The notes below the pieces were generated by a model, which was not told the DNA's origin, did not search any database, and worked only from the letters and a program-made list of their open reading frames with translations. A DNA stretch of 64,000 nt from Actinomyces mediterranea (lineage in GTDB: Bacteria > Actinomycetota > Actinomycetes > Actinomycetales > Actinomycetaceae), in the NCBI RefSeq assembly GCF_900155595.1, contig NZ_FTPB01000004.1:992001-1056000 (forward strand), given 5' to 3'. Shown piece after piece: positions 25,092-47,770 of this stretch (positions are counted from its first letter, which is position 1; each line of letters opens with the position of its first letter). The position numbers and the translations under genes were made by a program.

Positions 25092-26206
25092 ATGGAGATG
25101 GTCGTGACTGACGTGATCGAGTTGTTGGAAGAGGTGGTGATTGGTCTTGTGATGGGGAAGATCATCGATTAGAAGGGTTTCGCCGAGTGTTTGCTGGCGC
25201 GGGTGATAGAGCAAGGTGTGAGCCTGGTCGGCCTGGGAGGGCTGCTGAACCAGTTCACGAAGAATGTCCTCGAGATCGCGTTGAACGCCGAGCTGACCGA
25301 GCATTTGGGCTACGAGCATGGCGGGGCGCCGCCGGGGTCACACATGCGTAACGGCACCCGCTTGAAGATGGTGGTGACCGAGATCGGGCCGGTGGAGATC
25401 GAGGTTGCGTGGGATCGGGATGGGTCGTTTGAACCGGTGATCGTCCTTAAGTGCAAGCACCGCTTGGATGGCATTGACCAGATCGTGGTGTCGCTGACCG
25501 CGGGGGGCTGACGAGCGGGGAGAGTGCCGCGCACTTCGACGAGGTCTACGGGGCCAAGGGTGTCCAAAGACGCGATCAGGCGGATCGCGGAGAAGGTCAC
25601 CGGCGAACTCGCCGAGTGGGCCTCTGGCCCGCTGGATGCGCTCTACCTGGTCATCTTCGTCGACACGATCGCGGTCTGCGACGGGCTCAAGGACCTACCC
25701 GAGGCGATCAACACGACCTGGGAACAGACGATGGTGCACCAGTGCATCGTCCACCTGATCCGCAACTCGTTCCGTTACGCCGAACGGCATCGGGACGCGA
25801 TCGTGAAGTCTTTCAAGCTCGTGTACACGGCCCCATCCGAGCAAGCGGCGAAGGGACAGGTTCGAGGAGTTCGCCGCCGAGTGGGGACAACGGTATCCGG
25901 TGATCGTGCAGCTCTGGCGCTCTTCCTGGGCGCAGTATCGTGCCGTTCCTGGACTACGACGTCGAGATCCGGCGGGTGATCTGCACGACCAACGCGATCG
26001 AGTCGATCAACGCCCGCCACCGGCGAACCGTCAGGGCGTGCGGGCACTTCCCGAACGAGGCCGCGGCGATCAAGTGCGTGTACGTGGTGACGCGGTCGCT
26101 TAACCCCACCAGCAGTGGGAGGGCACACTGAATGACCAGATGAAAGCCCACACTGAACGCGTTCGCGATCACCTTCGCCGGACGGTTCGAAACAACCACC
26201 CATTAA
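25092..26206 (+). mobile_element. IS256-family (mutator-type) transposase remnant
   Basis: Reads MVVTDVIELLEEVVIGLVMG, a stop (TAG at 25170), then NQFTKNVLEIALNAELTEHL and GYEHGG, VIFVDTIAVCDGLKDLPEAI, QCIVHLIRNSFRYA and VICTTNAIESINARHRRTVR, the DDE domain of IS256. An internal stop, a deletion near 25510 and frameshifts near 25880-25960 inactivate it. Its C-terminus runs to about 26206, upstream of the Gabija-like genes. Confidence 0.85.
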
Positions 26207-26280
26207 TGAAAACCACCAGATCCCACACACCACTCATCAGACAGACCCAAACCCAGAACGGTTCAGAAAGGACTTCAGTC

Positions 26281-28137
26281 ATGAGGGTCAGACAACTTGA
26301 GATCGATAACTTTCGCGGAATCACAAAGGGACGTGTGGTCTTCCAGCAGCACACCTTGCTGGTCGGCGGAAACAATATCGGCAAGTCCACAGTGTGCGAG
26401 GCATTAGAATTGGTCTTGAGGCCAGAGCGCCTCTATCGTCGTCCAATTATCGACGAACACGATTTCTCCCACGATGCCTACCTTGACGACGAGGGTAACT
26501 CACGCGAGATTCGCGTTCGCGCCGTACTCACGGACCTTTCGGATGAGCAGCTACGCCGGTTCTTCCAGCACGTGCGACGCTGGGATGACGAGGAACTCTC
26601 CTTCATTGACGAGGAACCGGACAGCCTCCAATCTACTGATGGTGATGGAACTGTCTGGGCGCTTCCCATCATCTTCGTCGGGCGCTATGACCGTGAAGAG
26701 GACGACTTCATCGGGGACACGTTCTTCGATCATCCGCTACCCGAATTTGACGAACTCGATGAAGACGCGCGTGCATCACTCGGCTCGGGCCGCGCACAGT
26801 TCAACCGTGCGCACAAGCGACTCTGTGGCTTCATCTTCCTGCGAGCGCTGCGCACCGGATCTCGTGCGCTCAGCCTGCAGCGCGGTTCGCTGCTCGACAC
26901 AATCCTCCGGCTCGGCGGTGAGGGCGCAGCGAAGATGTGGCAGGACGCGCTTGGGGCGCTGCAAGGCCTTGATCCGGCGATCGGAGAGATCGAACAACTC
27001 AAGGTCATCCGTGAGAACATCCGCACGCGCCTCGACAAGTTCGTGAACCTTTCTCCAGGTGAGAACTCTGTGGGGTTCTTCGCCTCAGACTTGACGCGCG
27101 AGCACCTACGCGAGGTCGTCCGACTCTTCGTCGCGACGCAACCAAGCAACCATCCGGTGCCGTTCGCCAAGCAAGGCACAGGCTCGATCAATCTGCTGGT
27201 CTTCGCGTTGCTGACGATCATCGCCGATCTGAAGGAACATCAATCGGTCATCTTCGTGATGGAGGAGCCTGAGATTGCGCTTCCTCCTCACACCCAGCGG
27301 CGCGTGACCAAGTACGTGGTACAGCAAATGGGACAGTCGATCGTCACATCCCATTCGCCCTACGTGATCGAGCAGTTCGACCCGAAGAACGTGGTAATCC
27401 TATCCCGTGACGGGGATACCTTCATCGGTGCACCAATCGATACCAAGCATGTCAAACCGAAGAGCTACCGTACGCAGCGCCGCCAGTTTGCCGAGGCAAT
27501 CCTGAGCCGCGCCGTGTTCGTCCTCGAGGGACAGACGGAGATGGTCGCCGTGCACGCGGTCTCATCGGCGCTCGAACAGTTCCGCGACGATTACATACAC
27601 GTCGATCTTGCTGGCGTCACCCTCTTCAACGCGGGTAACGACCGCGAAGTGCCGCGGTACGCTCCGATGTTCAAAGCTCTCGGCAAGCGGGTCTATGGCA
27701 TGCGGGACAAGCTGAACGCCCCTGATGCAGGGGACGCGACGGAGAACATCAAGTCGTTCGACGAGTTTTGGGAGTCGCCGGAGACGGGCATCGAACAGAT
27801 CCTCGTGAAGCAGGTTCCGACGCATGTGCTGCGGAGCTTCCTCGACGCAGTTGTGCAACGCGATGACTATCCGACAAGCCACCCCTACGTGCCCGAGCAG
27901 ACTGCTGACGATGACCTGGCAACACTGGCAGCGAAGGTGCTGGAGGCCCGCAAGGGCGATGGGTACGGCTTCGGGTACAGTGGCACGCTCATCGAGCAAT
28001 GCCAGACCGAGGCTGACCTGCCTGCCTTCATCCGCGATGCGCTTCTCACTATCAACGAACAGCTCCAGGACGAGCCTGAACTGGCATTGGATGACGTGGC
28101 TGCACCGGTGACCGAATCCGCAGAGCACGAGGAGTAA
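26281..28137 (+). CDS. gajA: OLD-family ATPase/TOPRIM endonuclease, GajA-like
   Basis: 618 residues; start chosen at ATG 26281 with AAAGGA upstream. N-terminal SMC-like ATPase: Walker A GGNNIGKST (29-37), signature TGSINLLVFALL, Walker B VIFVMEEPEIALP (about 323-335), SIVTSHSPYVIEQ. The C-terminal TOPRIM half has FVLEGQTEMVAVHA (Glu about 416) and VYGMRDKLNAP (Asp about 476), as in class 2 OLD nucleases. The helicase gene starts 5 bp downstream. The OLD-plus-UvrD pairing is the definition of the Gabija anti-phage system, in which the nuclease cuts DNA when nucleotides are depleted. Intact, with no stop or frameshift. Confidence 0.8.
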   Translation: MRVRQLEIDNFRGITKGRVVFQQHTLLVGGNNIGKSTVCEALELVLRPERLYRRPIIDEHDFSHDAYLDDEGNSREIRVRAVLTDLSDEQLRRFFQHVRRWDDEELSFIDEEPDSLQSTDGDGTVWALPIIFVGRYDREEDDFIGDTFFDHPLPEFDELDEDARASLGSGRAQFNRAHKRLCGFIFLRALRTGSRALSLQRGSLLDTILRLGGEGAAKMWQDALGALQGLDPAIGEIEQLKVIRENIRTRLDKFVNLSPGENSVGFFASDLTREHLREVVRLFVATQPSNHPVPFAKQGTGSINLLVFALLTIIADLKEHQSVIFVMEEPEIALPPHTQRRVTKYVVQQMGQSIVTSHSPYVIEQFDPKNVVILSRDGDTFIGAPIDTKHVKPKSYRTQRRQFAEAILSRAVFVLEGQTEMVAVHAVSSALEQFRDDYIHVDLAGVTLFNAGNDREVPRYAPMFKALGKRVYGMRDKLNAPDAGDATENIKSFDEFWESPETGIEQILVKQVPTHVLRSFLDAVVQRDDYPTSHPYVPEQTADDDLATLAAKVLEARKGDGYGFGYSGTLIEQCQTEADLPAFIRDALLTINEQLQDEPELALDDVAAPVTESAEHEE

Positions 28138-28142
28138 TTGCT

Positions 28143-29870
28143 ATGAAGGTGCAGCTCTCCAAGACTGCCCAAGGAGTGCTCGATCATGACTTTCCCGTCC
28201 TAGTAATCGGCGGCCCAGGCTCCGGCAAGACCACGCTGTCTCTTCTGAAAGCCCAGGCAACGCTCCCCGCCCTGTACCCAGGCCAGGAGATCCTCTTCCT
28301 CAGCTTCTCCCGAGCGGCCGTCCGGCAGGTAGAAATCCGCTGCCGAGACATCTTGCGATCGGAAGAGCGTCGCCAGATTGTGGTGCGCACGTACCATGCG
28401 TTCGCGATGGACATCCTGCGAGCGCATGGTCGTCTGCTCACTGGACGCGCTCCGCGCATTCTCTATCCCGGCGCCGAGAATCTCGTCAAGGCCGCCTTCG
28501 ACGGCGACTGGAACGCTGAAGCCGAACACCTCGCGCGTGATGAAGGCCGCTACGTATTCAGTCAGTTCGCCGCGGCCGCTGCCCGACTCGTCACTGGCAG
28601 TGCGTCGATAGCGTCCCTGCTCGCCAACAAGTATCCCGTAATCATCCTGGACGAGTTCCAGGACACCGACGATGCGCAATGGGACCTGGTCAAGGCGCTC
28701 TCCGCACGCTCGAAGACCATGTTCATGGCCGACCCGGATCAGCGGATCTTCGACTACGATCCGCGGGTGGATCCAGAGCGCCTCAAACACCTGCGTACCC
28801 ACCTCAATCCAGCCGAGTTCGATCTCAGCGGGGAGAATCACCGAAGCCCCAACGCTGGCATCCTGCGGTACGCCGACGCCGTGCTTACGAATCGACCTCT
28901 GCCGGACACCAAGGACGTGATCACGTGTTCGTACTGGCCGGGGGAATTCGAAAGCGTCGCCCACGCTGGCGTCGTCTGGATGCTCGACTCGCTTCGCAAA
29001 GCGGGTATTGCCCATCCTTCGGTCGTCGTACTCGCACGAACGAACAAGCTCGTCGGGAGACTATCGACGATCCTCGGGCAGGAACACAACTTCAACAGTC
29101 GGCAAATCAGACCCGTCGAGCACGACGTGCTGTGGGACGCCGACCTTACCGCAGCGGCCGCACTAGTGGTGGCCTCGGTTCTGGAGTGGCAAAGCCACCC
29201 CAAGGAGATTGCACTCGGCCAGACCTTCGACCGCATCGCCGACTACTTCGACGCGAAGAATGCTGCCAGGGCGAGCAAGACCGCCCGGCAGACTAGCGAG
29301 CGGTACCGGACAGCCGCTGATCAGGTGCGCAGAGGTGAGGCGCAGCGGTTGAAGAGTGCCAAAGTTCTTGCAGCCTCGTACGACAGCGGTCTGGTGCTTC
29401 GGGGTAATCCGGCACAAGACTGGGTGCGCGCGCGTGATCTGCTCGATGCCGGGAACGACTTGTCAGATCTGCTGGCAAAGGTCAAGTTCGTCCGGCTCTT
29501 CCGCGCAACCGACGAGATCGGAAGCCGACTCGCTTCTGCGTGGGATCTTCGTGGCAGCTACAGTAGGGCCACCGATCTGGTACGTCGTGCACTCCAGGCG
29601 AGTCGGCTTCAATCCGACCAGCGTGACCCTCGCGGTTGTGTGATCATGACGACTCACAAGGCCAAGGGCAAGGAATTCGACGGTGTCCTGCTCGTCGAAG
29701 GGAAGTACCAGGACAGCTTTTTCCGCGATACGGACACCGAGGCGCAGCGCGCCGCAGCACGGCGTCTACTGCGCGTCGGCATCACTCGGGCGCGACGCCA
29801 GGTGGTGATCGTTCGGCCGCAAGGCGCTCCGGCGCTTGTGACCCCAGCGGGTGCGTCCGTGTCGGCATGA
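28143..29870 (+). CDS. gajB: UvrD-like superfamily 1 helicase, GajB-like
   Basis: 575 residues; GAGGAG precedes ATG 28143. Walker A is IGGPGSGKTTLS (about 22-33), motif Ia LFLSFSRAAV, motif II VIILDEFQDTDD, motif III MADPDQRIFDYD, motif V TTHKAKGKEFDGVLLVEG and motif VI RLLRVGITRARRQ. These are the UvrD/PcrA/Rep motifs; in Gabija the helicase partner senses DNA ends and triggers the nuclease. Slightly longer than the Bacillus GajB (about 494 residues) because of a larger middle region. Co-transcribed with the nuclease gene. Confidence 0.82.
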   Translation: MKVQLSKTAQGVLDHDFPVLVIGGPGSGKTTLSLLKAQATLPALYPGQEILFLSFSRAAVRQVEIRCRDILRSEERRQIVVRTYHAFAMDILRAHGRLLTGRAPRILYPGAENLVKAAFDGDWNAEAEHLARDEGRYVFSQFAAAAARLVTGSASIASLLANKYPVIILDEFQDTDDAQWDLVKALSARSKTMFMADPDQRIFDYDPRVDPERLKHLRTHLNPAEFDLSGENHRSPNAGILRYADAVLTNRPLPDTKDVITCSYWPGEFESVAHAGVVWMLDSLRKAGIAHPSVVVLARTNKLVGRLSTILGQEHNFNSRQIRPVEHDVLWDADLTAAAALVVASVLEWQSHPKEIALGQTFDRIADYFDAKNAARASKTARQTSERYRTAADQVRRGEAQRLKSAKVLAASYDSGLVLRGNPAQDWVRARDLLDAGNDLSDLLAKVKFVRLFRATDEIGSRLASAWDLRGSYSRATDLVRRALQASRLQSDQRDPRGCVIMTTHKAKGKEFDGVLLVEGKYQDSFFRDTDTEAQRAAARRLLRVGITRARRQVVIVRPQGAPALVTPAGASVSA

Positions 29871-34859: not shown

Positions 34860-37800
34860 CAGCTAGGCCCCCGACCGAGGTCTCCTTGCACTTCGACCCG
34901 AGTTGGACCTCTTTAGTGTGCCAGCGCCACGATGATTGTTTGGACAGCGGGATCGAACTGAGGTGCGGTGGTTAAACGGTTTCCGTTGATGAGGATGGTG
35001 ACGTCTTGGAGCGGGCGTAGAGTTCGGATGATCTTCTTGATGTTCATGCCGGTGGCGTCTTGGAAGTAGCGGGCGACGGCCAGGGCCGCCATGACCACAG
35101 TGAGGTGCGCTTCGATTGCGTCCCTGGTGTGGTGGAAGATCAGGCGGACTCGTAGGTCGGTTTGAACATGCGGAAGTGCTGCTCGGCGTGCCACAGGTCG
35201 TGGTAGCTGGCGATGACCTCATTGACGGACATCATGCTGGCTTTGATGTTGGTGACGTAGCCTTTCAACCCGACTAAGGAACGGGCTCTGGCGAGGGTTT
35301 TCTCGTCGATGCGGACGCCGGAGCGGATGGTGGTGACAAAGCGCGGGGATTTTGGGCCTTCTGTTGTTTCCGTGGGTCAGGGGCGGGTCTAGGTGGGGTG
35401 GGTGGTGTCCGCCGAGGGTGAGTAGGGCGAAGGTGGCGAGGTGGTCGGTGTTGTGGAATCCGTAGGCGATGCGGGTGATGAGTCGGATTTTGGTGTTGAT
35501 GGATTCGATGCGCCCGTTGCTCAGGTGATGTTCGATGACGGCCAGGATGCGGGGTTTGTAGTGTCGGATGGCGCGTCCTAGGTCGACGAATTGTCGGATT
35601 CGGCACCGGCTTGCCCATGCTAACCAGCGATCTAGGGCTGTTTGAGCGTGTGCGTGGTCGAGGGTGAAGATGACGCGTAGGCCTTCTTTGAGCAGGTAGG
35701 CCCGGTACAGCTTGGGGTCGGTGCGCGCGATCCCGGCGAGTTTGGTCTGCTGGTTACTGGTGAGGTCTTCGGGGTTCTTCCACAGGGCATACCGGCAGTT
35801 CTTCAGCGCTTTGGCCGTCTCGGTGGCGGGCCGGGCTGGTGCGTTCTTAGCGGACCTGCCTCAGGGGCGTTTGGGCTCATTCTTGGCTGCCTTTCGAGCT
35901 TGGTTCCATGCTGGGCGGCGTACTTCGTCGAGCGCGTCGGTGGCCCATTCGACGACGTAGAACGGGTCAACGCATCACAGGGCGTTCGAGCAGCGTTTCT
36001 TGACGACCTCGTCAATCCATCGGGCGCCGTCTGCGCTGACATGGGTGATCGTGGCACACCTGCCCGTCTGGGATGCTTCGAGCTGGGTGAAGAAGGACTC
36101 TAGGGTCTTTGTGGTGCGCCCGGGAACCATCCACACCAAGCATCCCGTATCGTGGCATACGACCACGGTCAAATACTTATGACCCCCTTCTTGTAACTGA
36201 TCTCGTCAACGCCGATACAGCCTAGGCCCGCGAAGAAGTCCACACCCTTTGCGGTATCGACCCACACCCTAAAGACAATGAATCCGACCGCACGCCAAGC
36301 GATACGCCTCAACTGACACACTGCCGACTTCGATGTCACGGTCGCCAGCCAAGCGACCTCAAAGTCGAAGAACCTCGCGTAACCAGCGCCGTGACGAGCC
36401 CAAGGCACCTAGGCGACAATCACCCCATGGTCGGAGCATCTCACACACGGCGCGCCAGCTTCGACCCAAACTCGGATCGTTCCCAAATCCAATCCCCCCC
36501 CCACCGGCGTCGTTCCTCCCCCTAGCCATACAACGGAACCCGCGCCCCGCATAAACCACACCGGGGTTTAAGGCACCCGGAAACCCGCACACGAACAACC
36601 AGCGCCCACTTAACCAAGTCGAAATCCGTGTCCTCAACAATCGTATCCTCATCGACTCCGAGGACCCCACACCATAAACTTGCTTCCCGCACGCCGTTCT
36701 CCGCATCTCGTAACTGACCTTCAACAAGCCAAAAACGCAGACCAGAAAACAGCATGCTCCCACCTAGACCCGCCCCACCACCTACAGATCAGTCACAAGA
36801 GCCGGATTTTGCCCGTTTTTGGCCGGCGACCACGGCCCGTGCTTTGTCCTCCTGGGCGGCCAGGGTCCGCATGTCACGGGCGGCTCGCTTAGCGGAATAC
36901 GCCCATACCGTCCGCCATGAGCGCGGGGTGGCGTCCGGGTCCTACACCGGCTCGGCGCGGACCGTGACGGTGTTCTCTGGTGCGGCGTTCGCGTGGCGTG
37001 GGATCAAAGTGTCGATCACCTGCCCGTCAGCAAAGGGGTCCCTGTGCCAATAGAAGCGGGAGGCCAGGTCCCCGGGGGCCTTGGCGAGGCGCCGCCCCGA
37101 CGATGAACCGTAGGCCCGCCGCATCCAGGTCACCCAGGTTCGAGGCGCTCATCACCGCGGCGTCAGCGACCACCACCATGTCCGCAACCTCGTGGCGAGT
37201 CTGGAAAGCGTCAATGGTAGGAGATCAGTATCTTCGTCTCGGCCGTGTCCCCTCCCAACACGACACCTCCAAAGGAAAGCCGACCCTCTCCACGAGGAGG
37301 CCAACCACAACCTGCGGATCCACCCGCCGTCCCTTCGAATATCCGACCTTGCGCAACTCGTCTTCCTTCTCCGCCTCGAAACTAGAGTGTCGTCACGTCG
37401 TATAAGACCAACGACAGGCCCCCACCCGAGGTAGCATGGGCGAACCACGCGCGCGACCCGACCCCGATAATCATCCCTATTCGCCCGCTGGAGGGCGTTG
37501 AAGTACGGACGCTCGAACACTCGACCCCCACCTCACCCAGGACACACACCACGTCCTGCTTCAACGACCGCTCGATAATCCGGGCAAACTCCCTGAATGC
37601 CTTATCGACGAGCTCATCGAACCCGAGACGCGCGTACGCGGATTCCAGAATCTCCCACAGCCAGCGCGACCGCTTCCCCGTGATCAGCTCTGCTCCCGGT
37701 GCCCCGGTGTCAAAAACATCCAACACCCCCTGATCCGGATGAAAACGCTCCTGCGCGACCTCAACAAGAGTGGCTAGCTCAGCCTCACTATGAGCCGTGC

Positions 37801-37990
37801 CGACATGCTCGATCAGCCGGTTCGTCCGCCCCACCTTTTCTACAATCTGCACAGCAGTGCCGCCACCGTTGCAGACTTTGCAGACGAAAGGGCTCACACC
37901 CCGATCCCACGACCCGAATAAGTGATCTAAACCAGCATCATCACACACCCTGACCAGCACAAACATGCACCGAATAAGCAAAACCCACCA
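34860..37990 (-). mobile_element. IS1634-type element split by an ISL3-type element
   Basis: The 5' part (37981 down to 36812, minus) reads AVQIVEKVGRTNRLIEHVGT, LITGKRSRWLWEILESAYAR, GGGLSLVLYDVTTL and WRTVWAYSAKRAARDMRTLA; the 3' part (35346 to about 34910) reads FVTTIRSGVRIDEKTLARAR, SLVGLKGYVTNIKASM, IFHHTRDAIEAHLTVVMAAL and KKIIRTLRPLQDVTI. Joined, they form one IS1634/IS4-type transposase. It has several frameshifts of its own. The break coincides exactly with the 8-bp duplication around the ISL3 insertion. Confidence 0.8.
35355..36803 (-). mobile_element. ISL3-family element with terminal inverted repeats and 8-bp target duplication
   Basis: The minus strand encodes CGLCGARVPLY, VPWARHGAGYARFF-like sequence, FAGLGCIGVDEISYKKG, TVVVCHDTGCLVWMVPGRTT, ITHVSADGARWIDEVV and SNGRIESINTKIRLITRIAY, a complete but frameshifted ISL3 transposase. 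The ends are ggccttctgttg at 35355 and, inverted, ggctcttgtgac at 36803, and further in both share ggggcgggtctaggtggg. GGATTTTG flanks the element on both sides (35347-35354 and 36804-36811), the 8-bp duplication expected for ISL3. Confidence 0.85.
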
Positions 37991-38034
37991 AAGTTACAGG
38001 AGTCAATCCTAACTGCGAAGAGCCTCAAAACCCT

Positions 38035-38290
38035 GCGCCCCTACAAGAAATCACGGTCCGGATCGGTGGCCACGAACACCAGGCAGCACACCCCATTCCG
38101 CCCGAAACCGCCGCCCTTCTGAACGCCATTCACGGCGATCCAAATGACACACCCCGGTGGCACGAGTCAGGTGGAACAGTCCTTCCGCATGGCTAAGACC
38201 GACCTCGCCGTCCGAGCCGTGTTCCACCACGCCCGCGAATCGATCGAGGCCCATCTGACCATCGTGTTCACCGCACTGCCCTCCCCCGAG
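38035..38290 (+). mobile_element. Scrambled C-terminal pieces of a second IS1634-type transposase
   Basis: At about 38050-38130 one frame reads LQEITVRIGGHEHQAAHPIP, the tail of such transposases, and at 38160-38275 another reads VEQSFRMAKTDLAVRAVFHH and ARESIEAHLTIVFTAL, which should precede it. The inverted order shows rearrangement. Nothing else is recognisable between 37990 and 38358. Confidence 0.65.
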
Positions 38291-38358
38291 CCCGACGCCC
38301 ACTCCATCCTCAACCACCTACCTGGTTACTAGAGAGATCCAAGTCAGGAAAAAGATCG

Positions 38359-39285
38359 TCACCGCATCAGGGCGTGACTGACCATGGTCTCCAGAGCGTC
38401 GTCGAGGTCGTCTGCTTCAATGAGCGATTCGAGCCCCTCGCGATCGATCATTACGACACACATATCTTGAGTAGAGAACCGGAGCTCCTGGAGTCTTGCA
38501 TCTTCGGTAAATCCAGCGAGAGAGACAAGGAAAGCAATTCGCGAAGTACCTCGTTTCGTCTGAAGCTTGGTTAGTAGAACAGACATCATCTGCTGCGAGG
38601 CCTTCTCCGCTCGATTTTTCGCCTCAACCAACATGAAGGGCACGCCCGACTTTTGCCACACACGAGGGCTAAAATTGTCGATCTGAAGAACAAGGTCGAT
38701 CTCTTCTGTCTCCGTTCTATAGTTCCGTTCAACCACTCTCAGATCGTTGACCTGCGCGAACAGAAATACGAGCAGAGCCTCCAAGCGTCGACCACGCTCT
38801 TGGGATGTTCCCTCTCCAACTTTCGCCCAGGCACTTCGGCCAATCTCACGTCGGGACTCCGGAGACAAAGGTACACCGATATCCGTTAGGGCAATCAGAA
38901 TATTTCGAGGCTTGAGTTGTCGATAGTCAACGTAATCATCGACCACCAGCACTTCGGCTTCGATGCTCACGAGGAAGTTGGTGACGTCCGGTTTAAAGAG
39001 AGCGGCAATTGGAAGAGCCACGGTCACAGCAATATCACACGGGACGGCGAGCAGAAGGCGATCCTTCACGAACCGAGGGAGCTCCTCCTGAAGGAAGACA
39101 TAGAGGAGGCGCTTCCGATCATTAGATACAGCAGATGGGCGCCATTTCTTGCTGCCCAGAGTTACCTCAACATCACGCTCCCAATCTCCTCCATCCGCCG
39201 ATGCGCAAATCGCAGCGATGGTCGACTCAATATCTCGATAATCTACCCGCTTGCCGACAGCCGGATCGCCCAAAATGTCCTCCAT
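38359..39285 (-). CDS. PD-(D/E)XK nuclease, third gene of a methyltransferase-ParB-nuclease operon
   Basis: 308 residues from ATG 39285, chosen because AAAGGA lies 7 nt upstream and just past the ParB stop; an earlier in-frame ATG at 39324 has no ribosome site. The C-terminal half has a restriction-type fold: Glu in RRLEALLVFLFAQV (about 169), Asp in TEEIDLVLQID (about 197) and E-x-K in FMLVEAKNRAEKASQQ (about 222-224). The N-terminal half is mixed alpha/beta with no family I recognise (LPIAALFKPDVTNFLVSIEA). Likely the cleaving subunit of a restriction-like system with the two upstream genes. Confidence 0.75.
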   Translation of the reverse strand: MEDILGDPAVGKRVDYRDIESTIAAICASADGGDWERDVEVTLGSKKWRPSAVSNDRKRLLYVFLQEELPRFVKDRLLLAVPCDIAVTVALPIAALFKPDVTNFLVSIEAEVLVVDDYVDYRQLKPRNILIALTDIGVPLSPESRREIGRSAWAKVGEGTSQERGRRLEALLVFLFAQVNDLRVVERNYRTETEEIDLVLQIDNFSPRVWQKSGVPFMLVEAKNRAEKASQQMMSVLLTKLQTKRGTSRIAFLVSLAGFTEDARLQELRFSTQDMCVVMIDREGLESLIEADDLDDALETMVSHALMR

Positions 39286-39301
39286 GTCGAATTCCTTTGA
39301 C

Positions 39302-40327
39302 TCAGGCGGATGTCGCATCGGCATTGAGGAGTGCAGTCAACTGGGCAATCAGATCATGTCCCAATCGCTTAACCTCATCGTTGTCTGCGGTGCCAGCGGT
39401 CTGCGAGAGGAGTCGACTGAACACAGCAATCATTGACGAAGTACGGCGACCAAGTCTATCTACTTCGACCATCATTTGGACAGTGTCCTCGTAGGCATCG
39501 TCAATGGTTACGTCCGACTTTTCGATGAGATCGCGAATAGACGCATCAATAGTTGATTCGCCAGTGCCGTTCTCTTCGGCATCTTGGGCTGCAAACCTAA
39601 TGATCGGCGAAACTTTACGCAAACTCACCGTGTCAGTAATGACATGATCGAGTCTCTTCTGAACGAATGCCGCACTCACCTTATCTTCGCCGAACTCTTT
39701 CAAGATTGCCGGCCGCTTTCTCCTAAGGACATCGACGACATTCTTCTTCAACTCCCAGAAGAAGTTCAGCGGGATCGTTTCTTCACGAATATAGTTCTGC
39801 CACTCATCAGGCAGGGTCACGATATACCGCAACTGCCGAACTCGTTCCATTGAGAGCCCCGTAAGATCTCGCAACTCGGAGTCATTGGCTTCGCGCCCTT
39901 CCAGTTTCTCGATCTCTTTCGCGAGGCGTTGCAGCGCTTTGGCTGTAGGAATGTCACGCCAAGGCTCCCGGATCAGATGAATATTGAACATCTGTTGGAG
40001 CACTTCGCGCTCGCTGCGCTCCTTCGTGATGAGGGCAGGGATCGTCACATGCCCTAGATCCCGCGAACAACGGTAGCGGCGCTCACCGTCCACGAGAACA
40101 TACTTGTCATTCCGTGGGTAGACAACGATAGGGACAAGTACGCCTTCCTGGTCAATTGACCCCGTGAGGCGATCAAGTTCATCTTGAGGAAAGTCAAGCC
40201 GGGGATTGGCATTATTCGGCACGATGTCCGAGATCCTTAGCTCGCGCAGCTCAGCAGTTGAGTTGAGTGACTGTTCGACTGCTACACGGTCGGTCGGCGT
40301 AACAGCTTCCTCAGAGTGTGCAGACAT
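39302..40327 (-). CDS. ParB/Spo0J-like protein, second gene of the methyltransferase-ParB-nuclease operon
   Basis: 341 residues from ATG 40327 (GGAG 7 nt upstream), overlapping the methyltransferase stop by 17 bp. N-terminal ParB/Srx domain: LRELRISDIVPNNANPRLDF, IVVYPRNDKYVLVDGERRYR (GERRYR at 81-86, the nucleotide-binding loop), then an HTH (NDSELRDLTGLSMERVRQLR). The C-terminal 150 residues are helical and unlike partition ParBs (IDASIRDLIEKSDVTIDDAY). No ParA gene is adjacent, so plasmid partition is unlikely; ParB-type domains can also be CTP switches or nucleases, and here it may specify sites or load the nuclease. Confidence 0.8.
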   Translation of the reverse strand: MSAHSEEAVTPTDRVAVEQSLNSTAELRELRISDIVPNNANPRLDFPQDELDRLTGSIDQEGVLVPIVVYPRNDKYVLVDGERRYRCSRDLGHVTIPALITKERSEREVLQQMFNIHLIREPWRDIPTAKALQRLAKEIEKLEGREANDSELRDLTGLSMERVRQLRYIVTLPDEWQNYIREETIPLNFFWELKKNVVDVLRRKRPAILKEFGEDKVSAAFVQKRLDHVITDTVSLRKVSPIIRFAAQDAEENGTGESTIDASIRDLIEKSDVTIDDAYEDTVQMMVEVDRLGRRTSSMIAVFSRLLSQTAGTADNDEVKRLGHDLIAQLTALLNADATSA

Positions 40328-41513
40328 AGAGGTTCTCCGTTGCCAGTTTCTTAGATGTTCCTGTTGATCCACCCATTGTCGAGTGGTTTGCATTGAATGA
40401 CAACGTGTCCACTTCCGCAAAATACTCGCCTGCGATGTCGGCAACGGTGAGGTCACATGCTGCTAGCAGTCCAGCGGAAGGGTAACTGACCACAAGCGGC
40501 ACTCGCATTCTGGCGACGTTCCGACAAAGATCGTGGAATGAGGATACGACTGCGCTCTTCAACGAGAATCCGGTTGTAAAACGGTCTGAGCGATTGCGCC
40601 CCACCCCACTGGCGTCCGGATAGTCATATCTATAGAGCGTTTCATACACGTGGTAATAGCGGCTGTACTGATCTTTCGTATATGGAGGATCAGCGTAGAC
40701 AACTCCGATATCGTCGAGCTGACCGGCACTCACTAGATCAAGCGCATCGCCAACGTACACCGAGTTTCCAGATCTCCATTCTTCGGATCCAACAAGCGAC
40801 ACGGCACGCAACGCTTCGGCAAACTCATCCCACACCGAGCGCCCCCAGATACGAACGATACGTGCATGCGCTGAGTCGGAATTTGGACGAAGGTATTGGG
40901 CCGTATGTCCCGGCGCATTGATCAGTACTGAGGTTGCCGAGATCCAAGCGCCTAGGAGCCAATCCCGGTCATCAAGGTGGTCGTCGCCATCAATCGCTGC
41001 TCGGATCGAATCCACTTCGATCGCTTGGCGCAAACTCAAGTATCCTGCTGAAAAATATAGAGAAGCAAGTTCGTAATGATGACTGGTACTTGACACTGCG
41101 GCAGCACGTGCGGCGCGCCTATGGGACGCGGAGTTGACGACATGCTTTGCGTGCTGCATATACGATTTCAACGCACTACGATCGCCCGTAATGGCAGAAT
41201 CTTCGGCAGCTAATTGGTCAGCATATTTTACCTCAAGTTCAGCGTAACGAGATTTGAATATCGGCTGCAATCTGGAAACCGTAGACACTGCATCCGCAGA
41301 TCGCCGGAGCGCTGTGAATCGAGCGCGCGAAATAGAGGCCGTAAAGCTGAGTGCATCGTTTGTTACTACCGATGTCGTGTCGCGCAGACTCTCCGCGACG
41401 CTCCCCATACCCGAGAACAGGTCAACTGCCCTACCTTGGCTCGCGAGGCTCGCAATCGTGTCACGGACGGGGTTGGCCATATGGCGCTTCGTCCCCATGT
41501 ACCGCACCACCAT
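40311..41513 (-). CDS. D12-class DNA adenine methyltransferase, first gene of the operon
   Basis: 400 residues; AAGGAGAG lies 7 nt before ATG 41513. RYMGTKRHMANPV opens like Dam/D12 enzymes, motif I (S-adenosylmethionine binding) is AVDLFSGMGSVAESL (FSGMGS at 33-38) and the catalytic motif IV is VVYADPPYTKDQYSRYYHVY (DPPY at 275-278). The 230 residues between them are larger than in Dam and may hold an unusual recognition domain. Product should be N6-methyladenine. With a nuclease two genes downstream in an overlapping operon it most likely protects the host in a restriction-like pair. Confidence 0.85.
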   Translation of the reverse strand: MVVRYMGTKRHMANPVRDTIASLASQGRAVDLFSGMGSVAESLRDTTSVVTNDALSFTASISRARFTALRRSADAVSTVSRLQPIFKSRYAELEVKYADQLAAEDSAITGDRSALKSYMQHAKHVVNSASHRRAARAAAVSSTSHHYELASLYFSAGYLSLRQAIEVDSIRAAIDGDDHLDDRDWLLGAWISATSVLINAPGHTAQYLRPNSDSAHARIVRIWGRSVWDEFAEALRAVSLVGSEEWRSGNSVYVGDALDLVSAGQLDDIGVVYADPPYTKDQYSRYYHVYETLYRYDYPDASGVGRNRSDRFTTGFSLKSAVVSSFHDLCRNVARMRVPLVVSYPSAGLLAACDLTVADIAGEYFAEVDTLSFNANHSTMGGSTGTSKKLATENLYVCTL

Positions 41514-41699
41514 GCGATCGCTCTCCTTATGTCAGGCGGCCATCCTCGCGGCCGCTCACTCGTACGGTATCGGAGCTCGCTGTTTCCTACGCGCTGCCAC
41601 GCCGTTTCACAATAGTCTCCTGGCTTCGCGCACAGACGCTCTAGCGTTGGTCGGTCAAGTCTTGTTGAGTGGTGTAATGGTTAGTGATCCTGGAGGTGG

Positions 41700-42369
41700 G
41701 GTTAGCTGGCGAGTGCGGGCATGGTGGTTTCCTGGCTGGTGGTGTCGGTGTCGGGTACGAGGCTCAGGCGGCAGCGGGTGAGGATGTCGAGGCCGAGGTA
41801 GCGGCGTCCTTCGGCCCATTCGTCGGTTTGTTCGGCCAGGACAGCTCCGACGAGACGAACGATCGCTGCGCGGTTGGGGAAGATGGCGACGGGGTCGGTG
41901 CGTCGGCGGATCTCGCGGTTCAACCGTTCGGTGGGGTTGTTCGACTAAAGCTGGTGCCAGACCTCGACCGGGAAACTGGTGAAAGCGAGGATGTCGGCTC
42001 TGGGGGCGTCGGGCTGGTCGTAAACCGAGTGGAGCATGGCCTTCACTGCTGGCCAGAGGCTTTTCGGGGTGATCACCATCAGGTTTGCTTGAGTAGTGAG
42101 TGCGGCAACGCTGCCACGATGCTCCCGGCAGGTTCGCCGCGACACTCTCTACGAGTCCTTGGTAGACGTCGGAGGTGACCAGCCGAACCCCGGTCAGCCC
42201 TCGGGCGACCAAGTCAGCGAAGAACTCGTTCCAGGCAGGGCCGGTCTCAGACGTGGCAACCCGCATGCCGAGGACTTCGCGGTGGCCATCAGCGTTGACC
42301 TCGACCGCGAGCATGACCACGGCGTTGACGACCGGGGCTTGTCGGTTCTTTTGTGTAAGTGGGTGTGGT
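41700..42369 (-). repeat. Left arm of a 670-bp inverted repeat (IS256-type transposase fragment)
   Basis: Minus strand reads VVNAVVMLAVEVNADGHREV, TSETGPAWNEFFADLVARGL, VRLVTSDVYQGLVESVAANL and, after a frameshift and a stop, [20 protein letters not shown] through TTMPALAS-stop: the C-terminal two thirds of an IS256-type transposase. All parts compared match the reverse complement of 44040-44709 with no length difference. Confidence 0.9.
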
Positions 42370-43735
42370 TAGAGGTAGGGGTTGATGTGGTCGGGGTAGG
42401 TGGCGGTGAGTTGGGTGGGGGCTTGTTTCCAGTCGTTGGTGGTCTTGGCTTGGATGAGGCGGGCCTTGGCTGTGCGCTTGTTGGCAGCCGTGTCAGCTTC
42501 TTTGGCCCGCTTGGCGGTACGTCGGTCCTCGATGTTGCAGATTGCCAGCCACAACAGCTTGATGGCCGCGGCGTCGTTGGGGAAATGACGGGGGTTGTTG
42601 GTGACCTTGCGCAGTTGGTAGTTCAGCGACTCGGTCGAGTTGGTCGTGTAGATGACGCGACGCACGGCGGGAAGGCTAGGAACGGCACGAATCTTTGCCA
42701 GGCCCTCTGCCAGGCCCCCACGGCGTCGGGATAGCGCACCCCCTAGGGGCGAGGACGCGAAGTCGGCCAGAGCCCCTGGGGCTGCGTCCTCGTTGACGAC
42801 CGTGTAGATGGGCGTGAGGGCGGCGGCGACCTTCTTGCAGTCCCCATAGGACACGAACCTCATCGAGGAGCGGATCAGGTGGACCAGGCAAGTCTGGACC
42901 AGGGAGTCGGGCCACGTCGCCTCGACGGCCTCAGCAAGGCCTGTCAGCCCGTCGCAGCACACGATCAGGACATCCCGCACGCCGCGGTTGACGAGCTCGG
43001 CGCACACGGCCGCCCACAACGAGGCGCCCTCGTCAGCCTGCACCCAAATCCCCAGGACGTGCGTGACACCCTCCATGTCGACCCCCACGGCAATATGGGC
43101 CGCCCTATTGGACATGCGTCCGCCGTCACAGACCTTGACGCGGATCGCGTCGAGGTAGACCACCGAGTAGAACTCCTCCAGCGGGCGGCTCCGCCACTGC
43201 AGGACGGTGTCGGCGACTGCGTCGGTGATGTTGCTGATCGTCCCCGCGGACAGGTCCACCCCGAGCGTGGAGTCCAGGTGGTGGCGGATCTCCCGCACCG
43301 TCATCCCGCCGGCGTACAGGCTGATGATCATGCCATCCAGCCCGTCCACGCCGACGCTGGCCCCCTTGCGCACCAGGCGGGGCATAAACGTGCCAGCGCG
43401 GTCCCGGGGGATCTCGATCTCGAAGGGGACCGACCTCAAAGTCCATCGTCTTCACGCTCATACCGTTGCGGGCGTTTCCCCTCGCCCGCGGCGTGCACTC
43501 GCCCTTATCGTAACCCAGATGGTCCGTCAGCTCGGCCTGCAAGCCCCCCTCTCCAAGGTGTCTTTGAGCAGCGCCGGAAGCAGACCATCGGCGCCTGTGA
43601 GCTCGACCTGGCCCACATCGATCTTGTCGAACAGGTCATCCAAGCCACCACAGGCCACAAACTCCTCCACCACCTTACGACCCACACCACCAGCAGCGGT
43701 CTTCTCATCAATCATGATCATCAGTGCCAAACCTC
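42369..43735 (-). mobile_element. IS256-family transposase, nearly full length but frameshifted
   Basis: The 356-residue frame (43439-42369) contains SVGVDGLDGMIISLYAGGMT, SVVYLDAIRVKVCDGGRMSN, AELVNRGVRDVLIVCCDGLT, TCLVHLIRSSMRFV and VIYTTNSTESLNYQLRKVTN, the full DDE domain. The N-terminus (from about 43730: KVVEEFVACGGLDDLF, LLPALLKDTLERG, LQAELTDHLGYDKGE) is in two other frames, broken near 43540 and 43440. Of a different IS256 subgroup from the flanking repeat arms. Confidence 0.85.
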
Positions 43736-43857
43736 CCAGAAAGGCTTACACAAACCACTAAACAGGCCCCGAGGCCCTGATCCACCCATAGCGACAGACA
43801 CCAGTACATCTCTTTTTGGCGTACTCACACGCGCTCCACGCCGTGGGAGTGAACCTC

Positions 43858-44030
43858 GGTCAGCACCGCGGGTGACAGCTACGACAACGCCTTGGCCAAG
43901 GACCATCAAACGGCCTGCACACGGGCCGAGCCCATCCACTCCCAACGCGTCTGGGAATCCACCAAAGCAGTCGAACTGGGGCCACGATAGGCTGTGGGCC
44001 CACTGTGGAACACCACCCACCCCCACGAAG
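43858..44030 (+). mobile_element. IS3 OrfB C-terminal remnant
   Basis: Plus strand reads STAGDSYDNALAKDHQTACT, IHSQRVWESTKAVELG and WNTTHPHEALSHHTHLH, the end of an IS3 integrase core (GDSYDNALAE...WWNxxRxHxxL). Ends where the right repeat arm starts. Confidence 0.75.
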
Positions 44031-44742: not shown

Positions 44743-46443
44743 TCAGATGAAGCGGAACCCGAACAGCCCGCCTTCTTCACCTGCATCGGTGAGCACCGGA
44801 TCAATGATGTAGCTCCGCCGCTTGAACCCTTCGGATTCAGCAGCTGCCAAACGATCCGAGTTGAGTGTCACGACGTACTGGAATCCAACTTCATCTGCCA
44901 GTCGAGCACCAATGTTGAGACAAGACGCAATTTGGCGATCGTCCATCGAATCAAACAACTGGCTGTCGTGCACCAGGATTCGCGGGGCGCGACCGAGTTG
45001 AATTCCTGTAACTGTGCACACCATGTCAAGCAAGAAGGTCTTCACACCTAGAATCCCCGCTGACGCATCGCCATCAATCTTCGGCACAACTTTCAGTACG
45101 CCCCTGGGCGTGGCCTCAATCAGCAAAGAGACGTTGCGGTCGTTATAGATCTCTTCTCCGAGTTGCTGAAACAAGACGATGGCCGATTCCAGAGGCAGCT
45201 CGCGGTCTGCGATCTCAGTTCGAACGTTGGCTTCGGCCTCGGACATCATTGCACGCAGGCGAAGACCGGTGTCGCTGACAGACTGCACAAGCTCGAGTTT
45301 CCGCTCTAAATCCGCAACAAGAGCATCCAGATCTGTGAGTTCTCGTTCGGCGTTTCGGAACGTTTCCAATGCCATTGAGTCGTTCAATAGATTCATGACA
45401 TTCGAGCGTCGCTGATCGAGGGCCTGACGTTCCAATTTAACCTCCGTCAAGCGCTGAGTCACAGACAGAAGCTCTGCTTGAAGGAACATTTGCCGATTTC
45501 GCACCACCGAAGCATGAAACTCAGCGACCTCGGCGAAGCGGTGGGTTGCAGCTCCCGGCAAGACGATACCGATCTCCGCATACATGCTCTCCAGCTGCTT
45601 GGCTAGCTCCATTCCTGCAACTGTGGGGCGCTCTTCTGTCATTGCAAGCTCAAGGTCGCGCTTCCGCCGTTCAAGCGAGAGACCCTCATCGTTGAGCTCT
45701 CTGATTGCGTGGGTCAGACTGTCTGCATCCGCTTGGTGGTCGGCATACTGTTCGTCGACTCTAAACCCCGACAGATTGGACTCCAAGCGAGACCGCTTCT
45801 TACGCGCCTGAGCCAAGCGGGCGCGCAGTTCCGGCTCGCTGAGCGTGATAGCCCCGATTGCACCTTCAGAGATGGCTTTACGAAGTGCTTTTCGATTCTT
45901 CTCCAGTGCTGTTACTTTGTCTGCTTTCGCAAGGATCTCAGGGGAGAACCCAAGAAAGAAGCCGATCCGTGCGCCGGACTCCCAATCGGACTCGACGCGA
46001 TGAGTCTTGAGTGGATCACCGAAGTAATAGCGGGCAAGCTGTCCAAACAACTGGCCCACTGTCGGCCTTCTGACAGAATCGGGAATACCCAAAAGGGCGG
46101 AGAGTTCGTGCTTCCAGTCATCAACGCTAGTCACAGCGCCATCAACATAGACCTTCGTTTGCGGCGAAACAGGCCGTTCCACTCGGTTAGGTTCTGCCGC
46201 TTTGCCGAAGTCGAGTTCTGCCCAGAATGAGTGGTCGGACAATGCCTCAACCTTGAGGCTATCGGCGATATTTCCCCCAAGAATGTAGCGCATGATTTTA
46301 ACGAAACTGGTCTTGCCCGCTCCATTCCGGCTATCCCCGGACGTGGATTCGGTGGTTTTGTCTGCGAGTAAGATATTCATCCCATCGTGAAACCTCAGTC
46401 GTTTGAAGCGTGAGTCAGACGAGCCCAGTTCATGTAGAAACAC
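44743..46443 (-). CDS. DUF2326 SMC/Rad50-like ATPase of an ABC-three-component (ABC-3C) system
   Basis: 566 residues. P-loop SRNGAGKTSFVKIMRYILGG (GAGKT at 41-45), a Glu/Arg/Leu-rich coiled coil at about 175-400 (LEKNRKALRKAISEGAIG; LTDLDALVADLERKLELVQ), and the C-terminal lobe RAPRILVHDSQLFDSMDDRQ with VVTLNSDRL, characteristic of DUF2326 proteins. In ABC-3C systems the ATPase senses DNA or nucleoprotein and activates the effector. Its start overlaps the middle-component stop by 14 bp. Full-length and intact. Confidence 0.82.
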   Translation of the reverse strand: MFLHELGSSDSRFKRLRFHDGMNILLADKTTESTSGDSRNGAGKTSFVKIMRYILGGNIADSLKVEALSDHSFWAELDFGKAAEPNRVERPVSPQTKVYVDGAVTSVDDWKHELSALLGIPDSVRRPTVGQLFGQLARYYFGDPLKTHRVESDWESGARIGFFLGFSPEILAKADKVTALEKNRKALRKAISEGAIGAITLSEPELRARLAQARKKRSRLESNLSGFRVDEQYADHQADADSLTHAIRELNDEGLSLERRKRDLELAMTEERPTVAGMELAKQLESMYAEIGIVLPGAATHRFAEVAEFHASVVRNRQMFLQAELLSVTQRLTEVKLERQALDQRRSNVMNLLNDSMALETFRNAERELTDLDALVADLERKLELVQSVSDTGLRLRAMMSEAEANVRTEIADRELPLESAIVLFQQLGEEIYNDRNVSLLIEATPRGVLKVVPKIDGDASAGILGVKTFLLDMVCTVTGIQLGRAPRILVHDSQLFDSMDDRQIASCLNIGARLADEVGFQYVVTLNSDRLAAAESEGFKRRSYIIDPVLTDAGEEGGLFGFRFI

Positions 46444-46684
46444 GATGCCTCACCAACTGCCCAGATTCATTCCAAGAAACTGCATCAATCGCAAACAGCA
46501 TGGACAATGCCAAAGCGAACCAATCGAAGGTGATCTTGGAGTCTCCGCGAGCCTCACTTGAGCACTTCGAGAACCGCTCCCAAAGCCCTGACACGGTTGC
46601 AGGCGAGTCCAAGAAAGAGATAAGGCTTGCCCCAATGGTTAGCAGAGCGCGCTGAGGCTCGATGCCTTTAGTTGGTAGCAACAT
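46430..46684 (-). CDS. ABC-3C system middle component
   Basis: 84 residues from ATG 46684, overlapping both neighbours (17 bp and 14 bp). MLLPTKGIEPQRALLTIGAS then SGLWERF and ITFDWFALALSMLFAIDAVS match the short middle-component proteins that link effector and ATPase in ABC-3C operons; the first residues (PxKGxxPxxALLxxGA) are especially typical. Function otherwise unknown. Confidence 0.78.
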   Translation of the reverse strand: MLLPTKGIEPQRALLTIGASLISFLDSPATVSGLWERFSKCSSEARGDSKITFDWFALALSMLFAIDAVSWNESGQLVRHRVST

Positions 46685-47621
46685 GCCGCACTTCGCCTCC
46701 AGCGTTGTCAGCAGGCGGTTCCTCGAAGATGTCGCATGAGTCAAAGAAGTATGCCGTGACGCCGTAAACGGCATTAGCCCTCTTCGTGGAAAGATCAAAG
46801 TCCTGGCCGCCAAGCGCCCCATAGACTCGGCGAACGATCTCGCGCACGTCCCTTGTGGCCTGTCGAGCCTCTTGGTAGATGACGCGGAAGCGTTGAGCCT
46901 TCTCGTCGCGCAACCCAGGATCTGCCTGTTGGGAGAACCATTTGTCAATGCGCGCCGAAAGGAGTCTCCCCGCATTGAACTCTGCCCTCGTAGTCTCCGG
47001 GAGATTATTGAAGTCCATCTTGGTGGAGGGCACTGGACGGATGGATTCGATATGGTCGGGGCCGTCTCCATCTACATCCTCCAGTGAGAGGATCAGATCC
47101 ACAAGATCGGCTAACTTCACGTTCTCGGCATGTGGGACACCTGGGATTATTTCATCCAGCTGCGCTGGAGTTAGTTTGTCAGCGGCCTTCCACCACAGAT
47201 CGTCAGCCCGCCAGATCTCGATTGTGATGGGACGTTGCGTCCCAGGCGCATGTTGCTTCCGCAGCGCTAGGACACTCTTAGTCGGCAAAGGACCACAGGA
47301 GGCGTTGGTGACAAACCGCCAAGTTGAGAAGTCGCTCCAACAAGCGATCCCTCTGGCGAAGTCAGACTCCAGCTTCTCTTTTGTCTTCCGGTCAACGCCG
47401 GTTGTGGCTCTCTGCCCATAGCAGGCGTATAGGATCGATCCGTTGTCAGCCAGCCCGTCACAACCTCCGTCGCCGTGCTTGCCCATCGGTGATGGATTCA
47501 GGTAGTCAGTGTGGAAACGGGCCAAGAGTGCCGTGGCATAGTCTTCGAAAGCATCACCAGAAGCGAGGCACCGCTGGTCATGCTGTGCTCGGTACCAGCT
47601 CTTCCATGCCGAGTCGATCAT
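46668..47621 (-). CDS. ABC-3C effector: nuclease-like N-terminus plus ABC-3C C-terminal domain
   Basis: 317 residues from ATG 47621 (AAGGGG 8 nt upstream); a longer reading to 47699 lacks a ribosome site. The N-terminal domain, GDAFEDYATALLARFHTDYL, MGKHGDGGCDGLADNGSILY and ACYGQRAT, has the spacing of a PD-(D/E)XK fold in which D-G-x-x-D-G and the next strand form the active site, though a clear E-x-K is replaced by ACYG. The C-terminal half (LDEIIPGVPHAENVKLADLV onward) is the shared ABC-3C module. First gene of the overlapping operon. Confidence 0.75.
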   Translation of the reverse strand: MIDSAWKSWYRAQHDQRCLASGDAFEDYATALLARFHTDYLNPSPMGKHGDGGCDGLADNGSILYACYGQRATTGVDRKTKEKLESDFARGIACWSDFSTWRFVTNASCGPLPTKSVLALRKQHAPGTQRPITIEIWRADDLWWKAADKLTPAQLDEIIPGVPHAENVKLADLVDLILSLEDVDGDGPDHIESIRPVPSTKMDFNNLPETTRAEFNAGRLLSARIDKWFSQQADPGLRDEKAQRFRVIYQEARQATRDVREIVRRVYGALGGQDFDLSTKRANAVYGVTAYFFDSCDIFEEPPADNAGGEVRHVATN

Positions 47622-47770
47622 GGGCGCGCCCCTTCCCGTAGCTGATTTGCCCGTTTGGCCGAACGGTGTCGCCCTAAGAAGGTTGCGCCACCTTGTCAAC
47701 CAAGTTTAGCTGTCCACCCCCGGTCGGAGTCTTCCCCGCCGGTTCGTGTTGCCGCTCGTCAACGGCCTCC

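Follow-up and report, generated by a model that had tools for sequence, protein, structure and literature searches.

ParB is known as the clamp of chromosome partition, and the question raised here is what a ParB-like gene does between the genes for an adenine DNA methyltransferase and a predicted nuclease. The three genes are found at positions 38359-41513, on the minus strand, of a 64,000-nucleotide stretch of Actinomyces mediterranea DNA (contig NZ_FTPB01000004.1, positions 992,001 to 1,056,000; this whole stretch is called the window). The trio is probably a modification-dependent defence module that was acquired horizontally and whose exchangeable effector is directed by a ParB-like sensor. 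Its parts, a type II methyltransferase, a ParB and a PD-(D/E)XK nuclease, replaced in some relatives by a PRTase-CE protein, are of kinds already known.

The reading frames of all three genes are open and intact, and purine-rich stretches precede the start of each. The earlier note, made from the sequence alone, had described three intact genes with an overlap of 17 base pairs (bp) and a gap of 16 bp. The overlap was confirmed, and 6 of the 8 trio loci show it at exactly 17 bp; the gap holds for a nuclease start at ATG 39285, which has a better ribosome site than the in-frame upstream ATG 39324. The upstream start would give a 23-bp overlap with the ParB-like gene, as in the loci of Microbacterium (L020), Intrasporangium (L021) and genome G1127 (L132), and both starts are possible. 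The restriction-like composition proposed in the same note was also upheld. The methyltransferase matched Pfam MethyltransfD12 (4.9e-11, with DPPY) and the PADLOC family MTase_II (2.4e-22), placing it in a type II family; the ParB-like protein matched Pfam ParB_N (3.4e-18) and carries GERRYR; and the nuclease models with a restriction-enzyme fold. The GC content of the trio is 53%, compared to 61% for the whole window.

The trio was observed in the same gene order in the window and in seven other loci, eight in all, with protein identities of 27-93%. In a nuclease search of 396 phylum genomes, the positives besides the window were another full-length relative (G121) and a match confined to the nuclease domain; the trio of G121 is complete and ordered as in the window (38, 40 and 31% identity). 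Five trios, in Microbacterium sp. 11MF (L020), Intrasporangium chromatireducens (L021), Leifsonia sp. C5G2 (L022), an Acidimicrobiia metagenome-assembled genome (MAG) and an Actinomycetota MAG, came from a scan of the GTDB species-genome collection by methyltransferase-pair patterns (93 confirmed loci, best 80 kept), which detects a locus only if one of two short peptide patterns is present; its counts are therefore not prevalences. The nuclease-profile search of 35 same-genus genomes gave two positives, the own genome and G1127, and G1127 carries the whole trio. The order-wide nuclease search (396 genomes) found the own genome only, and no relatives were found in viral contigs with the ParB pair A1 or the nuclease profile A4. 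The trio is rare in the genomes searched.

All three genes are under protein-sequence constraint. Between the window and its closest copy, that of G1127, 373 of 400 methyltransferase residues, 299 of 341 ParB-like residues and 274 of 308 nuclease residues are identical, with ratios of nonsynonymous to synonymous substitution rates (dN/dS) of 0.12, 0.18 and 0.20, respectively, at dS 0.28-0.35. In nine gene comparisons among the window, L020, L021 and L022, the proportion of synonymous differences (pS) was 0.71-0.81 and that of nonsynonymous differences (pN) was 0.07-0.25. These values bear out the selection that had been suggested from the lack of lesions. Since the same order recurs in seven other loci and pN is well under pS in 12 of the 12 gene comparisons made, the trio is not a product of chance.

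The blastn alignments indicate that the trio moves as a cassette. The stretch common to the window and L132 closely bounds the trio (Table 1), and the rest of the window shares only two pieces of ~70-90 bases with the 19 kb around the G1127 trio. When positions 34001-46000 were compared with L020-L022, alignment was found only in the trio or 13 bases beyond. In the genus genomes (20 genomes without G1127, with at most 15 candidates scored in each), only the transposase-related sides of positions 36000-46000 matched. The GC content of the trio was also under that of its surroundings in L020-L022 and in L132 (55 vs 59%).

The ParB-like proteins form a defined subfamily with a signature of its own. 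A profile of 14 members matched solved ParB/Noc chains at 3.3e-25 for the best chain and up to 4e-20 over the ten best, and a motif alignment was performed between 18 members and 14 canonical ParBs (one set drawn from the own genome plus 13 other genomes of the phylum). The motifs M[FY]xIHxxRxxW and DG[EQ]RR were each present in 18 of 18 members and 0 of 14 canonical ParBs, while the ENxxR/EN catalytic motif was present in 0 of 18 members and 14 of 14 canonical ParBs; the latter all show QPR, GERR and EN[ILV][HQN]. The L132 sequence, found last and left out of the counts of ParB motifs and nuclease residues, the 18-locus ParA scan and the identity matrices, also shows both member motifs. In the ParB-profile search of the 396 phylum genomes (E<=1e-26), 43 genomes matched, of which two members, both in trios, scored 446 and 395 bits, and the next ParB scored 105 bits over the N-terminal half.

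In Bacillus subtilis ParB, E78 (GERR) and E111 (ENLQR) are required for hydrolysis of cytidine triphosphate (CTP), according to the accessible part of PMC8494293, which also describes PadC as a protein lacking ENLQR that binds CTP but does not hydrolyse it. At the position of E111, all 18 members have F or Y. Because the hydrolysis glutamate is replaced throughout, it is unlikely that the ParB-like proteins run the canonical CTPase cycle. By analogy with PadC, it is possible that they bind a nucleotide but do not hydrolyse it in the usual way.

The picture drawn in the earlier note changes in that the nuclease is only one of at least three kinds of third gene. The ParB-like gene is adjacent to the methyltransferase gene or one gene away in 12 of the 80 kept GTDB loci. 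The nuclease is also present in 5 of these 12, and in another 5 (L025, L027, L028, L031 and L049) a ~280-amino-acid HEPN-like protein stands at the nuclease position. L029 and L030 have a PRTase-CE protein as third gene (1.4e-42 and 2.4e-40) in the order ParB, PRTase, methyltransferase, and the L029 protein, the sole PRTase scanned against PADLOC, matched retron PRTase_III-A (2.7e-35). A ParB-first scan of viral contigs gave five loci (L100-L104). Each combines a D12 methyltransferase with a third gene, which was of the ~280-amino-acid HEPN-like type in L100 and PRTase-CE in L101-L104 (1e-28 to 5e-33 for L101, L102 and L104). Dropped from the counts were L104 (99.6% identical to L103), L106-L109 (same contigs as L101-L104) and L045 (a weak ParB match of 32 bits, 5.5 kb from the methyltransferase). 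The totals are thus nuclease in 8 loci, HEPN-like in 6 and PRTase-CE in 5. All eleven non-nuclease loci have an adenine methyltransferase together with a ParB-like protein of this subfamily, and the third gene directly follows the ParB-like gene in 18 of the 18 loci laid out.

The methyltransferase and ParB identity matrices were correlated (r=0.82, 15 loci, 0 of 5000 permutations), also without three close relatives (r=0.41, 12 loci, 6 of 5000 permutations). The methyltransferases of L029, L030 and L100 matched the window-type model at 278-293 bits; those of L101-L104 are D12 enzymes of another kind (Pfam 1e-41 to 1e-43), with no match to that model at E<=10. Because the type of third gene tracks the ParB identity groups and methyltransferases of two kinds occur within the PRTase group, the ParB-like protein and the third gene look like a tighter pair than either forms with the methyltransferase.

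For the window nuclease, Pfam Mrr_cat (0.0014) and UPF0102 (7.1e-5) both fell slightly under their curated cut-offs, and the nuclease profile had no match among PDB sequences. The fold, on which the earlier proposal depended, was predicted by AlphaFold2 with a mean predicted local distance difference test score (pLDDT) of 83.5 and a predicted template modelling score of 0.83. The core (within residues 134-308) runs helix-strand-strand-strand-helix-strand, and the modelled C-terminal half has the fold of a restriction enzyme; the VIA-align comparison placed it with the small subunit of R.BspD6I (Z 11.4, root-mean-square deviation (rmsd) 3.3, 147 aligned), EcoT38I (Z 9.7, rmsd 3.3, 131 aligned) and FokI (Z 9.3, rmsd 3.7, 153 aligned). 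E169, D197 and K223 are conserved in 7 of 7 aligned members and E221 in 5 of 7, and the window nuclease has a complete predicted PD-(D/E)XK site. The top Foldseek ranks for this model were short Argonautes (template modelling score ~0.2, rmsd ~15), which were judged spurious.

Residues 19-129 of the nuclease model resembled XisH, with middling Z for both 2okf (Z 7.5, rmsd 3.2, 105 aligned) and 2inb (Z 7.4, rmsd 3.2, 107 aligned). The same two entries, at Z 9.8 and 9.9 and tied with other entries including nucleases, were the best rows for the HEPN-type model (pLDDT 90.5), and the nuclease and HEPN-like effectors may therefore share an N-terminal adaptor domain. The C-terminal half of the HEPN-type model is all-helical. 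The motif of the HEPN superfamily is RX4-6H, and R229 and H234 are present in 6 of the 6 HEPN-like proteins. The helical bundle aligned with 2hsb, a HEPN protein by title, at a Z of 7.7, which is within noise for helical bundles, and Foldseek gave no match with E<=0.001 for this model.

The simplest reading covering all loci is that the methyltransferase and the ParB-like protein are the recognition part and the third gene is the effector. The adenine methyltransferase would mark host DNA at a sequence motif and so protect it, and the ParB-like protein would act as a DNA-reading sensor, binding DNA through its helix-turn-helix (HTH). Its ParB/Srx domain, which lacks the usual catalytic glutamate, would serve as a nucleotide-dependent switch rather than as a partition CTPase. 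At unmarked, foreign sites the ParB-like protein would recruit or release the effector encoded by the adjacent gene, possibly by way of the N-terminal domain of this effector. For the window it would be a PD-(D/E)XK deoxyribonuclease (DNase) that cuts DNA; the HEPN-like and PRTase relatives would possibly act by abortive infection, so that whether the invader or the cell is destroyed may depend on the effector type. The module would thereby have antiphage activity. More specifically, it is conceivable, though doubtful, that the ParB-like protein is hydrolysis-defective, is loaded at unmarked sites, locks onto foreign DNA in the nucleotide-bound state as a clamp or sensor, and activates the effector encoded next to it, be it the DNase, the HEPN-like protein or the PRTase; this would amount to a new type of self/non-self immunity. 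In any case, the genes of a defined ParB subfamily that lacks the hydrolysis motif are carried along with those of DNA methyltransferases and of effectors that can be exchanged. If the ParB-like protein senses unmarked DNA, methylation-based self-recognition would be joined to retron- and HEPN-type effectors, and the trio would offer a compact system in which to test ParB-type proteins as immune sensors.

Several observations weigh against a sensor-directed defence module. A ParB-like partner was observed in only those 12 of the 80 methyltransferase loci, which had been found via the methyltransferase. The flanks of L024 and L026 look metabolic, judged by eye only and with no defence-gene scan, and the single neighbour proteins scanned from L022 and L009 gave no match. 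In two aligned nucleases (L009 and L026), E221 is replaced by T. RPB5-type RNA polymerase subunits made up 28 of the 50 rows listed for the nuclease model, with a best Z of 9.6; the RPB5-type subunit is a non-catalytic version of the PD-(D/E)XK fold, and the fold that the model shares with it does not equal activity. The HEPN assignment comes without a Pfam match and with helical matches within noise. The shared XisH-like domain rests on models (Z 7.4-9.9), because profile-profile comparison of the nuclease and HEPN-like families by hhalign detected no homology at the sequence level.

An ordinary type II restriction-modification system, in which the nuclease alone recognises and cuts the methyltransferase site while the ParB-like protein controls transcription or has an accessory role, is a rather unlikely account of the trio. 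It agrees with the type II lineage of the methyltransferase and with the resemblance of the nuclease's C-terminal half to R.BspD6I, EcoT38I and FokI. Relatives of the methyltransferase also lie in restriction-type neighbourhoods: type II/III methyltransferases were among nine scanned neighbour proteins of the ParB-less relatives L054, L047, L036 and L048, and L047 and L036 have a neighbour with a C-terminal Mrr-like nuclease domain; for a further relative, L069, the single neighbour protein scanned had no match. However, a plain type II system fails to explain the trio family, because the nuclease is replaced by HEPN-like proteins in 6 loci and by PRTases in 5 while the ParB-like gene stays, with the third gene directly behind it in every locus laid out. 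To our knowledge, neither HEPN-like nor PRTase proteins are site-specific DNases. A device that serves mobile elements mainly for addiction or competition, by killing cells that lose it or by excluding rivals, with the third protein as the toxin and the methyltransferase and ParB-like protein guarding against it like an antitoxin, would suit the abortive or toxic outcomes suggested by the HEPN-like and PRTase genes, the transposase genes bordering the trio and the viral-contig origin of L100-L104, where an integrase-like gene is close in L100 and L102 (by eye). We consider it improbable, since chromosomal copies are near other defence genes and the ParB-like proteins of two relatives had no plasmid match at E<=1e-15. 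That the ParB-like protein is itself a nuclease or nucleotidase, as reported for the ParB domains of Osa and BCE_0392, with the third protein auxiliary, is very improbable: nuclease and NTPase activities are reported for ParB/Srx proteins in the accessible part of PMC5512222, and DG[EQ]RR separates the members from canonical ParBs, but every locus laid out has a third gene, and that of the window has its predicted catalytic site complete.

It is scarcely credible that the trio is a degenerate partition locus, a parB without parA, even though ParB_N and HTH are present, and this candidate was rejected. The EN motif is lost in all 18 members, and methyltransferase and third-gene partners recur. 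One ParA query (E<=1e-5) had no match in the window and found nothing convincing in the fetched flanks of the 18 loci and L132, in agreement with the earlier statement that no ParA partner exists; the single weak match, in L029, lies 7 kb from the ParB-like gene and scored 28.6 bits, compared to 309 bits for the own-genome ParA. No parS-like site was found in the window within 2 mismatches of one 16-base consensus. A reading as plasmid or phage replication genes was also rejected, since tblastn of the nuclease and of two relatives' ParB-like proteins gave it no support. None of the outcomes that the earlier note named as refuting (homologues mostly as phage or plasmid replication or partition genes with a ParA, a failed nuclease fold prediction or a trio already catalogued) occurred. 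The nuclease matched no phage record, and the two plasmid records (Kozakia and Halorussus) matched only its C-terminal, Mrr-like half, with no ParB named in the annotated flanks. For the ParB-like proteins of L028 and L102, phage records gave no match at 1e-15/1e-18, nor did plasmid records at 1e-15. With the window ParB-like protein, 351 plasmid records were hit at E<=1e-5, none of them reaching 60% identity, and among the 40 matches listed, 27 were named as ParB/RepB/Spo0J family partition proteins. The Nonomuraea plasmid match (H3/L006), which covers most of the query, was discarded as a canonical parB with parA adjacent.

Other arrangements were observed among the methyltransferase relatives. 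In L023 (6758-12004), a methyltransferase 47% identical to that of the window is accompanied by an 824-amino-acid DpdB/DndB-like protein in ParB's place, with a weak HEPN_Swt1 match (0.016), followed by a PD-T7-1 homologue. In L018 (5750-9768) and L019 (5537-9553), the methyltransferase relatives adjoin DGQHR proteins, of which that of L018 matches DndB (4.6e-7), and a ~440-amino-acid protein without clear family. These three loci, with DGQHR proteins instead of ParB, were not counted as members. L017 and L012 have neither a ParB nor a DGQHR protein; in L012 (267-7254, an IMG/VR contig), two methyltransferase-like genes flank a long protein with a GGDEF-like motif, an odd phage cargo.

The features of the locus and its surroundings are shown in Table 1. 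The defence-rich island described in the earlier note is supported by the Gabija pair and the ABC-3C-type pair (CTD10 3.2e-33, DUF2326 6.1e-28, PDC-M68B 2.1e-98), while one of the transposase genes (42372-43439) is a long open frame and may not be "dead". Two identical 670-bp inverted arms (41700-42369 and 44040-44709) enclose a Mutator-family transposase gene close to the trio. The Gabija genes are followed by an RmrA-like HTH/M78 peptidase gene (RmrA 4.1e-106), together spanning 26140-31869, and the open reading frame (ORF) 16998-18710 matched PADLOC mad3 (5.8e-46) and mad8 (1.4e-21). Because a TrwC relaxase fragment (49706-50722, 2.2e-34) is found here on the chromosome, a conjugative element may be the source of part of the island. 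The tRNA-Ala and tRNA-Ile genes are close together (53443-53775) near its right side.

Known defence genes were also found near the trio in three of the seven further loci. In L020 these are PDC-S28 (1.1e-285), a PIN_12 protein and a BovA match (1.5e-25); in L021, where the case is less clear, a PIN_8 protein, a ShosA/DprA-like match and a methyltransferase matching cytosine families; and in L132, a type IIG restriction-methyltransferase (E=0) and an AAA/OLD-like protein. The PIN genes directly adjoin the trio (10246-11256 in L020 and 10154-11683 in L021), and in L022 the ORF at this position shares sequence, by eye, with the Intrasporangium PIN_8 protein. The type IIG gene of L132 (13322-18478) lies ~4 kb from the trio.

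Table 1. Features of the trio and its surroundings (window positions; coding features are given with their strand).
Feature	Position	Strand	Length	Remarks
D12-class adenine-N6 DNA methyltransferase	40311..41513	-	400 amino acids	FSGMGS near start; DPPY at ~40691-40680
ParB-like protein	39302..40327	-	341 amino acids	ATG 40327; ParB_N, HTH, C-terminal part without Pfam match
PD-(D/E)XK nuclease gene (predicted)	38359..39285	-	308 amino acids from ATG 39285, or 321 from ATG 39324	
Methyltransferase/ParB-like gene overlap	40311..40327	-	17 bp	
Signature MFNIHLIREPW	39959..39991	-		Where canonical ParB has ENxxR
ParB-like HTH region	39788..39895	-	residues 145-180	Alignment with canonical ParBs
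Nuclease N-terminal domain	38899..39231	-	residues 19-129	XisH-like in model
Nuclease PD-(D/E)XK domain (predicted)	38362..38886	-	residues 134-308	E169, D197, E221-x-K223
Stretch common to window and L132	38349..41644	-		Closely bounds trio; blastn, 89.4% DNA identity
Mutator-family transposase genes bordering trio	41658..43439	-		41658-42320 (partial) and 42372-43439; Transposase_mut 1e-24 and 3.1e-77
ABC-3C-type defence pair	44746..47699	-		DUF2326 + CTD10; PDC-M68A/B
Gabija GajA + GajB	26140..29870	+		PADLOC GajA 1.6e-233, GajB 8.7e-198

The trio agrees with the earlier suggestion of an uncatalogued system. No PADLOC-DB 2.0.0 family matches the window ParB-like protein, and the best match of the nuclease (PDC-S02, 0.043) is not significant; searches of PADLOC-DB and of open-access papers turned up no account of the combination, and a description in a subscription journal is possible. 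The accessible parts of PMC5379612 and PMC13092281 contain nothing on the trio, and a figure legend of the latter lists MTase and PRTase among the domains of validated systems. Compared to type II restriction-modification, the trio likewise has a type II-lineage adenine methyltransferase adjoining a predicted PD-(D/E)XK nuclease, but it adds the ParB-like gene, and its relatives replace the nuclease with HEPN-like or PRTase proteins. With the canonical ParB/Noc proteins (ParB-CTPases) it shares the ParB_N domain, the GERRxR box and the HTH, and it differs from them in having [FY]x and a two-residue insertion in place of EN, a D before GERR/GQRR and no adjacent ParA.

The ParB-methylase BCE_0392 of a Bacillus cereus prophage also combines a ParB domain with an adenine methyltransferase, and N6-methyladenine and nicking-associated activity are reported for it in the accessible parts of PMC3459991 and PMC5512222; it is, however, one fused prophage protein, and no third effector gene is described in those parts. 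DndB, DpdB and GmrSD are ParB-superfamily proteins of modification and conflict systems, as described in parts of PMC10853773, PMC12839542 and PMC5512222. The DndB/DpdB (DGQHR) systems and GmrSD type IV restriction resemble the trio in placing such a protein within a DNA-modification or restriction module, and L023 pairs its methyltransferase with a DpdB/DndB-like protein. In contrast, the trio has a ParB_N protein with DGERR, not a DGQHR-type motif, and no phosphorothioate or deazaguanine genes; none of DndB, GmrSD and DpdB gave a match for the window ParB-like protein at E<=1. Effector exchange is described for retrons in the accessible part of PMC12548924. In five relatives of the trio, the third gene is akin to the PRTase effector of type III-A retrons, as judged from L029, whereas the partners seen in these relatives are methyltransferase and ParB-like genes.

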